From contig NZ_JAKQZA010000005.1 in assembly GCF_023008165.1 (NCBI RefSeq), forward strand, positions 1 through 64,000: 64,000 nucleotides of DNA, written 5' to 3'. This DNA comes from Kordiimonas laminariae (GTDB lineage: Bacteria > Pseudomonadota > Alphaproteobacteria > Sphingomonadales > Kordiimonadaceae). This document shows positions 19,787 to 23,688 of this stretch, piece after piece; within the stretch, counting starts at the first letter, position 1; the number at the start of each line of letters is the position of its first letter. The position numbers and the translations under genes are program-made. The notes under the pieces are model-generated. The model worked only from the letters and a program-made list of their open reading frames with translations, had not been told where the DNA came from and ran no database searches.

Positions 19787-20200
19787 TTACTTATTGGGCT
19801 CAATAAGAGCCTGTTTAAGATAGACCTTCACAACATCTTTCCCCACGCGGTAATCTGCATAAGGAGTTAAAGATCGCTGAACCAGATCAGGATCAATCGG
19901 ACGATTGATATCAAATCGAACACGAGAAAGTTCTGATAAAACCAGATTAAAATCGGCACGAATCTGCGGCACACGCTGTTTCACATACTCAATTTTTGAA
20001 GCATCCTGCACTTCAAGAACAGCCTGCACAGTCACCTTACCGATAAGCCTACCTTTTTTCTGCATAGTGAAGGTAAAAGGCATGAGTTCAACCTTGTGCT
20101 TACCTTCTTCCGGCGCATCCTGCACAGTCAACGCAAAAAGAGCTGGCGAAAATTCCGCAGCCAGCAAAAGGATCATCACTATTGAAGCAAATCTCAACAT
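19787..20200 (-). CDS. Secreted FliL-like protein
   Basis: A 137-residue product with a signal peptide or anchor (MLRFASIVMILLLAAEFSPALFAL). The remainder fits the FliL/stomatin-like pattern: strands LMPFTFTMQKKGRL and GKVTVQAVLEVQDASKIEYVKQRVPQIRADFNLVLSEL, a short linker, then DVVKVYLKQALIEP near the end, equivalent to the VYFTxFVVQ terminus of FliL. FliL sits beside the flagellar stator and supports torque. Lying upstream of a FlaEY-like gene in the same direction strengthens a flagellar role, but the similarity is weak and the call is tentative. Confidence 0.5.
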   Translation of the reverse strand: MLRFASIVMILLLAAEFSPALFALTVQDAPEEGKHKVELMPFTFTMQKKGRLIGKVTVQAVLEVQDASKIEYVKQRVPQIRADFNLVLSELSRVRFDINRPIDPDLVQRSLTPYADYRVGKDVVKVYLKQALIEPNK

Positions 20201-20408: not shown

Positions 20409-20437
20409 CTGGCACACCGCTTGAATATGTTTAGATA
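20409..20437 (+). promoter_or_regulatory. Candidate promoter of the intergenic RNA
   Basis: CTGGCA (20409-20414) and TAGATA (20432-20437) are 17 bp apart, which would start transcription near 20444, the base where the long hairpin begins. The same bases contain TGGCAC-N5-TTGA, close to a sigma-54 site but with A in place of C at -12. Both readings are weak; position relative to the hairpin is the main support. Confidence 0.3.
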
Positions 20438-20440
20438 CCT

Positions 20441-20552
20441 CTCGAGCAGGGGTGCGGGAATGGGTAATTTATTTACTCGACCCCCAATCGTGCACCTATT
20501 CCCGCGTACCCCGCTCAAGCAGAAAAAAGCCCGCTCAAAGAGCGGGCTTTTT
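20441..20552 (+). ncRNA. Candidate structured small RNA with its own terminator
   Basis: The + strand folds into a long hairpin: 20444-20465 (GAGC-A-GGGGT-GCGGGAAT-GGGT) pairs with 20494-20516 over about 21 base pairs, with one A bulge on the left, a 2-base bulge on the right, and a 28-base loop (20466-20493). A perfect terminator follows at 20523-20552. The GC-rich structure is an island between AT-rich flanks and overlaps no gene. The segment CCCGCTC of the hairpin's right arm equals the left arm of the terminator, so the two could compete for GAGCGGG. No match to SRP RNA, 6S RNA or tmRNA features was seen. Function unknown; a regulatory RNA near flagellar genes is the leading guess. Confidence 0.5.
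20523..20552. terminator. Strong, probably bidirectional terminator
   Basis: GCCCGCTC (20529-20536) pairs perfectly with GAGCGGGC (20540-20547) over a 3-base loop. Five T residues follow on the + strand and six A residues precede, giving a T tract on the reverse strand too. It can end the small RNA and the long FlaEY-like transcript, which stops at 20656. Confidence 0.85.
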
Positions 20553-20655: not shown

Positions 20656-23600
20656 CTAAGCGAACAAACTTAGAGAAGATCCTGCAGGGGAACCTGCCTG
20701 CAAACGAGCAAGACCAGACTGTAAATTAGCCAGCTGATTCTGAGTTGCCTGGGATACCGTACCCCCGCTAGCACCAGGCCTATTCAACAAATCTCGGAAC
20801 TGGTTGAATTCAAGGGACCGGAACGCGCGCTGGGTTGTGCCGATTGCACTATCAAGCAAATTCAAAACATAATTCGCTGTCGCTCTGTCTCGGATATGCA
20901 GCGCACCTTCAAGGCCCAAACCAAAAACACCACCCAGATCTGTCTCAGGATCAAACGGACGATCATCATCGTCATTCAGATCGAAAATTTCATCCCGCGG
21001 CAGCAAGCGTCCTGGTTCCAATCCTAAATGGCCAAGCAAGTCCTCACCTTCAGCGCCAGCGATCAAATCAACAGATACACCGTCACTCAACGCTTCAATC
21101 TGCAAGCGATCCCCTTCAAGGCTGGAGCTTACATTCACTTCAACCTGACCAAAACCAGCGATCCGAATTTTGCGGGCAATATCATCTAGTGTATCACCCT
21201 CATCCAAATCAATTTCCCGGCGCCGACCGCCATCAAAGGAAATAAAGAAGTGATCGCCTTCCGTGGCTGATGTCTGAGTTTCAATATCCAGAGTTTCATC
21301 GATACTGATGTCACCAACAGGCAAACCCAGCGTTTCAAGTACGCTATCGCCCTGTGCGGTAAATGCTAAGCCACCTACGTTAGTACGCGCCAAGCCCTCA
21401 CCAAACTGTTCAATATCACTTACTGTTCCTGAAGCACCATCCAACCTTGCTACAAAAGCATCTGTTGCCCCACGGTCATCCTCACCCGCAAATTCTGCAT
21501 TTGTAGAACCAGCTACATAAACATTACCATTATTTACCACCACATCGGCGATGGTATCTGTGCCTGTCGTTGAAAGGTAAGTAGTAAAGTTAGCAGATAA
21601 ATTCGTACTACCACTTAGTGTAGCACCGCTTACAAAACCATCAAAACCGGTAGATTGCGCGCCATTGACCGTTGCGGCCCCAGATGCATTCAAACTACCA
21701 CCATTTGTAGTGCCTGCCAGATAAACTTCACCGTTGGTATTATCGATCGTCAAGCTCTCGATAGAGCCGCCCAAACCAAGGTTACCAAAATTCACACTAT
21801 CTGTTTGACTGGAAAGGTTGCTGCCATCAATCCGGTACACAACCGCGTTCGCGCCCTCTTCCACCGCCAGCACCACATTATCGTTTGCATCCACAGCGAT
21901 GCCCTTCACAACATCGTTGCCTGATGTACCAAAAACATGGCTATCCTGAAGCGCGCCCGTGGTGCCGTTTAGTTTCAACACCAACGCATCTTCGCCACCT
22001 GCGAATGTTGATCCAACACCAATTGGCGACCGCGTAAATCCACCTACAAAAATATCGCCATTAGAATCAACAGCAACGGTTTGGCCACTTGTTTCAGCAA
22101 ATGTATCAAGCTGATACCGGAAAACTTCATCACCATTTTCATTGAACTTGGCAACAAAGGCATCACCTTCTTCGCTATCAATTACATCGCCTTGCGCAAG
22201 TTCACCATTTGTCTGACCAGTGATAATGACATTATCATTGGCATCAACAGTAATATCAAAAACATCAGCGCTGTCTGCTGCACCAAGAAGGCGGGAGAAT
22301 AGCTCGCTCCCTTCGCTATCAAAGCGGGTAAGATAAACATCCTGAGTGCCTGATGTATTAATCTGGTGTCCAAACGACCCTTGAGTTGTGCCTACAACAA
22401 AAATACCGCCATCGCTTGTTGTTGCAACTCGATTACCAAACGTGTTGGCATTTTCAACAAACTCGCTGTCTACATTCGTGATAGACGCAGAGTTATCTGA
22501 AGTGTTGTCATCATCATTTGACGTACTATTAGTGGTAACATCAGCAAGCGCATCAGCCCTGAATTGATCACGCAGTGCGGCGATATCTTCATCCACATCA
22601 TCCTCTTCTGCATCAGCTGTAAGCTCGTTAAGCTCAGTTGCAGCTAAGTCAATACCAGCAAATGTGAAAGAATCATCTCTAACAAGAGTGCCCGACAAAC
22701 CATTCACTTGGGTGACCCGGGCAGTTGTCGCAAAGCTGTCATCAATTTGAGAAACTGAGGATGCAACATACAATGTAGGCTCTGCACTGGCAGCTGACAG
22801 AGTTACCGCTTCCGTAATCGTACCATCTACCTGAAGCCCGAAGCGACCATTTGAATCTTCACTTACACTAAAGCGGGTTTGGTGCTTGATAAACTCTTCG
22901 CCCTCATCGTTCGTATCTGTAAGTGCTTCAATTTGCGTATTGATATGAGCCGCGATATTCTCAAGTGTCAGATCACCAGAGATGCCAGACAAATCAACAG
23001 TGATATTATCCGTTTCACCAGCTTTACTGATAGTAACTGTAAAGACCTCGGTACCAGTTAGCCCGGATACAACGTCCGTACGGTTTCCAACAACACCAGA
23101 ACCCTCGGTTACAGTACCATTCCTACCTGTACGGATTGCCGTTTCCACATCATCGGTTTTTTCACCAAGGAATAAATCCAACCTATCAGTCTGTGTCTCC
23201 AGAAGATAATTCTGAACTTCAGCAAACCCTTGCTGGAACTGCTCATCAATACGTTCCAGAGATGCTTCACTTGTACGGTCATCCGCCGCAAATTCAGCAA
23301 GCGTTCTAAGATCTGTAAGCGCCTGGAACAAAACAAACGTTGCCTGTCGATCGATATCATTCTCTACTGATTCGATAAACCTAGAATCTGTATCAATAAA
23401 TGTTGTCTTCGCCCGTACCTCGCGCACCCTTTCATTCAAGGTGGTGTCTTCAGTTTCTTCTGCACCACCGAAGCCAGGCGGCAGGATAAAGGCGTCCTCT
23501 GATGTGCCGCGATTAAAAGCCGCACGATCAGCTGGAGATAAGTTTTGAAGACCAAGACGAGTAAGGTCAGCGTTGAAGGATGCCTGAAGAAGAGACTCAC

Positions 23601-23688
23601 TAACACCAATTACAGGCGTAGAAAATGTGCTCTGTGCGCCACCAGCGCCGAACAATGAGCCAAAACTCGCATTTCCAAACAGTGCCAT
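20656..23688 (-). CDS. FlaEY-like large protein: flagellin-type segments around a beta-propeller
   Basis: A 1010-residue product without a Sec signal peptide. Residues 1-200 are mainly helical. Residues 212-330 (VFTVTISKAGETDNITVDLSG, LTLENIAAHINTQI, GRFGLQVDG) resemble the flagellin hook-IN motif. An acidic linker follows (355-400). Residues 405-770 are SBBP-type propeller repeats, each with a strand pair such as VDANDNVIITGQTNG, DAFVAKFNENGDEVF and VDSNGDIFVGGFTRS. A second hook-IN-like segment spans 810-890 (ISFDGGRRREIDLDEGDTLDDIARKI). A helical end (929-965, NYVLNLLDSAIGTTQRAF) resembles flagellin C-termini. This matches what I recall of Caulobacter FlaEY, implicated in flagellar filament assembly; the assignment is moderate. 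Confidence 0.55.
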   Translation of the reverse strand: MALFGNASFGSLFGAGGAQSTFSTPVIGVSESLLQASFNADLTRLGLQNLSPADRAAFNRGTSEDAFILPPGFGGAEETEDTTLNERVREVRAKTTFIDTDSRFIESVENDIDRQATFVLFQALTDLRTLAEFAADDRTSEASLERIDEQFQQGFAEVQNYLLETQTDRLDLFLGEKTDDVETAIRTGRNGTVTEGSGVVGNRTDVVSGLTGTEVFTVTISKAGETDNITVDLSGISGDLTLENIAAHINTQIEALTDTNDEGEEFIKHQTRFSVSEDSNGRFGLQVDGTITEAVTLSAASAEPTLYVASSVSQIDDSFATTARVTQVNGLSGTLVRDDSFTFAGIDLAATELNELTADAEEDDVDEDIAALRDQFRADALADVTTNSTSNDDDNTSDNSASITNVDSEFVENANTFGNRVATTSDGGIFVVGTTQGSFGHQINTSGTQDVYLTRFDSEGSELFSRLLGAADSADVFDITVDANDNVIITGQTNGELAQGDVIDSEEGDAFVAKFNENGDEVFRYQLDTFAETSGQTVAVDSNGDIFVGGFTRSPIGVGSTFAGGEDALVLKLNGTTGALQDSHVFGTSGNDVVKGIAVDANDNVVLAVEEGANAVVYRIDGSNLSSQTDSVNFGNLGLGGSIESLTIDNTNGEVYLAGTTNGGSLNASGAATVNGAQSTGFDGFVSGATLSGSTNLSANFTTYLSTTGTDTIADVVVNNGNVYVAGSTNAEFAGEDDRGATDAFVARLDGASGTVSDIEQFGEGLARTNVGGLAFTAQGDSVLETLGLPVGDISIDETLDIETQTSATEGDHFFISFDGGRRREIDLDEGDTLDDIARKIRIAGFGQVEVNVSSSLEGDRLQIEALSDGVSVDLIAGAEGEDLLGHLGLEPGRLLPRDEIFDLNDDDDRPFDPETDLGGVFGLGLEGALHIRDRATANYVLNLLDSAIGTTQRAFRSLEFNQFRDLLNRPGASGGTVSQATQNQLANLQSGLARLQAGSPAGSSLSLFA

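Follow-up and report, generated by a model that had tools for sequence, protein, structure and literature searches.

In the 64,000-nucleotide stretch of DNA from the marine bacterium Kordiimonas laminariae analysed here (the window), a strong hairpin and a terminator lie between two protein-coding genes, raising the question of whether they form a gene of their own and what its product might do. The hairpin and terminator belong to a conserved small-RNA gene. The predicted RNA is about 116 nt long (20436..20551, + strand, with the start placed from the -12 position of the promoter element and the end from the terminator). Our favoured reading, to which we give a probability of about 0.5, is that it is a stand-alone sRNA of the flagellar sigma-54 regulon, which would act in trans through a C-rich loop on mRNA leaders.

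The region 20409-20552 has a minimum free energy of -58.7 kcal/mol, against -38 (sd 3.97) for 200 dinucleotide shuffles, none of which is as low (z -5.21). The first-pass annotation proposed a structured plus-strand RNA with a terminator, and this is supported by the fold and, more strongly, by comparison, through the presence of the RNA in 29/29 family genomes and covariation of the arms. The hairpin arms (20444-20465 and 20494-20516) and the terminator (20524-20552) are located where they had been placed. Of the hairpin described as about 21 bp with a 28-base loop, the arms stand, but the stem has two bulges and the loop really contains a 3-bp mini-stem. In the window fold, the long hairpin consists of 12 + 5 + 4 pairs interrupted by two bulges (A and GU), and the mini-stem CGA/UCG (20478-20480/20488-20490) encloses CCCCCAA (20481-20487). 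Loop and mini-stem are part of an apical motif, ACUCGACCCCCAAUCG (20475..20490, + strand). On its 5' side, the inner arm of the long hairpin (20454..20465, + strand) is backed by covariation and is preceded by a conserved segment, ACCUCUCGAGCAGGGGU (20437..20453, + strand), which forms either the outer arm or a 5-bp 5' stem-loop; the stem-loop alternative is weakly supported, with a single covarying pair. The 3' arm (inner part 20494-20505, outer part 20508-20516, + strand) is backed by both fold and covariation. The intrinsic terminator is near-symmetrical, its sequence being nearly identical on the two strands (its own minus-strand match), and it can act for the small RNA as well as for the convergent gene downstream.

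The conserved structured RNA is a member of no Rfam 15 family (6S, SRP, tmRNA, riboswitches), which bears out the earlier failure to recognise SRP, 6S or tmRNA features. At the gathering threshold, a covariance-model search of the window with Rfam 15 finds a tRNA elsewhere and nothing at the RNA locus, and a search of ten related loci matches no family. All 37 permissive matches in the window score under their own gathering scores and were rejected; the two alignments displayed rely chiefly on the terminator. A simple consensus promoter and terminator scanner lists neither the promoter nor the terminator of the first-pass annotation; its three promoter matches (2.0 in shuffles) are all elsewhere than that promoter.

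Compensatory changes in the arms are present across relatives. In an alignment of 30 sequences that includes one tandem copy, 91.4% of cells in a 17-pair hairpin are paired and eight pairs have changed on both sides. The covariation score is 0.313, compared with 0.246 in shuffles (0 of 500 reaching the real value) and 0.087-0.162 when the hairpin is slid. Folded singly, 37/45 homologs have z < -2 (mean -3.9), and the eight weaker ones comprise two in the family and six in family f180. The segment CCTCTNGAGCAG is retained in 36/45 homologs, and a run of five T follows in only 31/45, a point against the favoured reading. In nine f180 loci (L134, L136, L137, L138, L141-L144 and L319), a second 3' hairpin apparently follows the main one by eye (AACUCC...CUUCAUC-GAUGAAG...GGAGUU, then GGCGGCC...).

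The RNA is matched by BLAST in 29/29 family genomes searched, from nine genera, and each main copy was read. The weakest matches (G004 and G005, E 0.005) were accepted because apical motif, promoter element and neighbour gene are all present in both. The sequence TCGACCCCCAATCG is found at 37 places in 29/29 family genomes, 29 of them at the main locus and eight elsewhere; its reversed control is found at none. When named genomes are scanned with a pattern in which promoter element and motif are both required, 23 loci are returned, from Kordiimonas, Pseudokordiimonas, Eilatimonas, Kordiimonadaceae, Kordiimonadales and unplaced alphaproteobacterial or Sphingomonadales MAGs. At locus L245 the apical motif resembles the complement of an apparent tRNA T-arm (CUCGAACCCCCAACC) with one base missing, which is probably a coincidence.

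Among 118 genomes of the order, 23 outside the family are matched by a model (R1) at E <= 1. Twenty of these were read, the other three being G353, G481 and G497 (E 0.46-0.87), and 14 loci in three families (f175, f179 and f180) were kept. Loci L140, L145, L146, L148, L149 and L150 were rejected as chance matches in long open frames. Two more f180 loci, L308 and L319, were found in 20 flanks of the SBBP-repeat gene that neighbours the RNA in the window, taken from genomes without a credible R1 match. Outside the family, at least 16 genomes from three families of the order have the RNA beside the same SBBP gene. That gene is the more widespread of the two (76/118 genomes of the order). It is present in 47 genomes outside the family, of which 16 have the RNA; the remaining flanks comprise 13 outside the reading and 18 that were read, and the motif is absent from those 18 (one of them 169 bases long). 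Among 385 genomes of the class, nothing credible is seen besides the window's own genome. An exact 15-mer finds its own place and two others, both rejected as lying inside long open frames, and a second model (R2) matches its own genome and 42 others at E <= 0.05, of which 29 loci were checked and rejected, none adjoining an SBBP gene. Literature searches on sigma-54 and flagellar sRNAs, flaEY and Kordiimonas small RNAs, with most subscription journals and bioRxiv preprints outside their scope, gave no paper whose title or abstract describes this RNA.

The locus is also conserved in its neighbours. Upstream and divergent is a gene for a 137-aa FliL-like protein (19787..20200, - strand); a Pfam FliL match exists as first annotated, although it is sub-threshold (E 0.042, 14.8 bits, cut-off 24.6). 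The convergent gene (20656..23688, - strand), previously called FlaEY-like, encodes a 1010-aa SBBP-repeat protein (Pfam SBBP). The FliL-like gene adjoins the RNA in 23/23 named loci and the SBBP gene in 22/23, the sequence of the sole exception (L086) ending 324 bases from the motif. Among the 14 R1 loci outside the family, 13 adjoin the SBBP gene and six have a recognisable FliL-like gene; the fourteenth (L143) sits in a fragmented genome.

This arrangement bears on two other explanations. The sequence CCCGCTC is shared within the window by the hairpin's right arm and the terminator's left arm, which had suggested attenuator-like competition and hence a cis-acting attenuator or leader of a plus-strand gene. 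We consider this highly improbable: the repeat is found in 2/29 family loci, and both neighbour genes are on the minus strand, leaving no same-strand gene downstream. Alternatively, the feature could work as DNA or as part of the convergent SBBP gene's 3' region, the functional transcript being that of the minus strand, as the near-symmetrical terminator and the adjacency of the main copy to the SBBP gene wherever checkable would allow. However, a sigma-54-type element holds its distance on the plus strand and motif copies occur in other places too, and we regard this explanation as quite unlikely.

The element in question is TGGCAC-N5-TTGAA (20410..20425, + strand), with GG at -25/-24, A at -12 and a score of 12.5 of 15 in a weighted scheme whose weights were set by the analyst. 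A score of at least 11 is reached in 42/43 homologous loci, against 6.8% of dinucleotide shuffles, L133 being without the element; L308 and L319 also have an adjoining one. The distance from element to anchor (in the family, a point 36 bases ahead of the apical motif; in other families, the CCUCU segment) is 12-17 nt in 40 loci and 8 in two. Compared with the sigma-54 consensus TGGCAY-N5-TTGC, the RNA loci have the GG, the spacing and the TTG, and the C at -12 is missing in the window. The first-pass annotation had instead taken TAGATA as a -10 box; its position (20432-20437) is correct, but it is kept in 1/29 family loci, and what is conserved is the -24/-12 element. A sigma-70 promoter for the same RNA in this family, a proposal that concerns the promoter only and overlaps the other readings, fits the -12 base in the family (T in 23 loci, A in three and C in three, thus T/A in 26/29) and a loose TANNNT, correctly placed in 12/29. 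TTGACA-type boxes also lie ahead of 4/10 copies of the motif at other loci (L229, L230, L233 and L341), a count made without a control. Against it, TGGYAY and TTG are retained in 29/29 family loci and C is at -12 in 15/16 loci of other families, and we judge it improbable.

The same sigma-54 score is reached by 35/42 flagellin leaders from ten genomes (9.1% of shuffles), and all 33 flagellin elements scoring at least 12 have C at -12. Genes for sigma-54 and FlbT are present in 14/14 chosen genomes, the window's own included; G427, G415 and G426 have both genes, yet the RNA was not found in them. From the promoter sequence and its setting, we read the RNA gene as a member of the flagellar sigma-54 regulon, with the differing -12 base going against expectation, and the RNA is apparently switched on together with flagellum genes. 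In the window's own genome (L182, C24:124871-130728), six tandem flagellin genes lie about 0.7 kb downstream of flbT. In this genome and relatives (L182, L185, L186, L189 and L194), small hairpins with A-rich loops are repeated along the 5' leaders of flagellin genes (GGACAAAAAGUCC and GAGCAAAAGGCUC are examples), and the hairpin that comes last covers the ribosome site (CUCCAAAAAGGAG). Judged by eye, these hairpins resemble multiple binding sites, perhaps ones for FlbT.

Qrr and CrcZ are sigma-54-dependent sRNAs, and sRNAs such as these serve quorum sensing, catabolite control or nitrogen. The Kordiimonas RNA, unlike them, adjoins flagellar-type genes. The flagellar sRNAs of enterobacteria and Campylobacter are co-regulated with flagella from sigma-28 promoters; flagellar co-regulation would be alike here, while the RNAs and their promoters are different. 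An RpoN-dependent sRNA is also the subject of PMC9731577; the proposed likeness to that RNA, as to Qrr and CrcZ, lies in being an sRNA under a -24/-12 promoter.

How such an RNA would act is suggested by its apical loop, where the C-run is more conserved than the stems; the exposure of this run is a fold prediction. In passages of PMC5869019, no part of the Caulobacter sRNA GsrN is better conserved than its C-rich loop, which pairs with G-rich stretches of mRNAs. The likeness, which is one of description, is that of an alphaproteobacterial sRNA with a conserved C-rich loop; as described there, GsrN differs in belonging to the general stress response and in having six tandem C in a 5' loop, and the Kordiimonas RNA has a sigma-54-type element, flagellar-type neighbours and an apical mini-stem. 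The apical C-rich loop is also shared with sX13 of Xanthomonas and HPnc5490 of Helicobacter, which in the passages of PMC3771888 have loops of 4-5 C and repress mRNAs that are G-rich near the start codon; both are from other bacterial groups, and sX13 has three loops. Base pairing is proposed because GsrN and sX13, which depend on G-rich mRNA sequences, are likewise built with a C-run on a small stem. On this proposal, sigma-54 RNA polymerase would initiate near 20436 and terminate near 20551, giving a long hairpin topped by an apical mini-stem of 3-4 bp that would expose a run of 5-7 C. The C-loop would then pair in trans with short G-rich stretches of mRNA leaders and may alter the translation or stability of these mRNAs during flagellum building.

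Searches for such targets gave no mRNA. The 10-mer complement TTGGGGGTCG is found at 28 places in six genomes and its reversed control at 27. Of the 28, five (G000, G001, G003, G025 and G431) are simply the RNA gene read in the reverse direction, and the others show no recurring gene by eye. In a duplex scan of 92 leaders of the window's own genome, 67/100 shuffled loops equal the best of the real loop, and mean pairing is weaker for the real loop (-8.4) than for shuffled loops (-10.2). Across 25 ortholog groups near the locus, with leaders taken from estimated start codons, GGGGGT, TGGGGG or GGGGTC is found in the leader of at most one member per group, and plain GGGG, among the rows listed, in up to 5/9 (w54779) and 7/20 (w24553) members. 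One flagellin has a GGAGAGG ribosome site with which the 5' CCUCUC could pair, but this was rejected, as by eye the pairing does not track the changes in other families. Because these scans found no target, we only infer the mechanism, and because they are limited as well as negative, base pairing is the leading proposal and protein binding its main rival.

According to that rival, the apical motif is a protein-binding site: an RNA-binding protein would be bound, or titrated, by the RNA, and the motif copies found on other stems and on mobile elements would offer that site too. All 16 apical bases, those of the mini-stem included, are invariant in 29/29 family main copies. This exceeds what a C-run seed requires, which goes against base pairing and would be explained by a protein site, as would the target scans that gave no mRNA. 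Outside the family, the motif is looser than expected of a protein site. Among 14 f180 loci, the mini-stem shifts in sequence and register: it is UCCG/CGGA in 10, is compensated in two (L138 UUCG/CGAA, L139 UCUG/CAGA), contains a G-U pair in L141 and has one pair broken in L143. The length of the C-run ranges from 5 to 7. CGA/UCG is retained around CCCCCA in L131 (f175), and L132 (f179) has no clear mini-stem. We take protein binding as possible and less probable than base pairing.

Copies of the motif at other loci also favour a protein site, as unrelated stems present it and in one predicted transcript it is doubled: in G024 a further copy lies in tandem, 100 bases downstream, and folds into a second loop hairpin, both hairpins preceding one terminator. 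With up to two mismatches, the 16-mer gives 21 inexact places, no excess over the 34 for the reversed control, and inexact copies therefore count only with hairpin or context support. Seven of the 21 were examined, and L238, L239 and L240, among 12 places fetched, were rejected as chance. Ten other-locus copies were tested, two of them inexact (L236, with one masked base, and L237). The pairing of the flanks is equalled by at most 5% of shuffles in L229, L230, L232, L235, L236 and L237, and by more than that in L231, L233, L234 and L341. Even so, the L233 stem recurs in L236, from a different genome, and in L341 a short stem can be drawn around the motif by eye. Several lie near partition or mobilisation genes: ParA and, beside it, an EcoRI-type restriction endonuclease (L231:2530-3366), a ParB-like gene (L235) and a MobA relaxase (L237). 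L341 is a viral (temperate-phage) contig with an integrase and an S24-type repressor. There, and in L230, which is unlike it a bacterial contig, the motif hairpin directly precedes homologous 180-aa proteins (L341:9412-9966 and L230:3719-4255; 47% identity) of no Pfam or PHROG family. L229, L232, L233 and L236 adjoin ordinary genes. A motif search of plasmid and phage record collections gives no match, and two further viral-contig scans give nothing new.

A doubtful extension is that the apical motif gives hosts and mobile elements a common handle on flagellar control. The host version would be made from a sigma-54 flagellar promoter, and phage- and plasmid-like copies of 14-25 bases on unrelated stems, some perhaps with their own promoters, would mimic it, competing for the partner of the host RNA and thereby retuning motility or functions linked to the flagellum. 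In Caulobacter, FlbT acts on flagellin leaders to restrain flagellin synthesis post-transcriptionally, by a mechanism described as unknown in passages of PMC3930126. A conserved sRNA seemingly co-regulated with flagellins would add an RNA layer, and the presence of its loop on a phage would point to mobile elements drawing on this circuit too.
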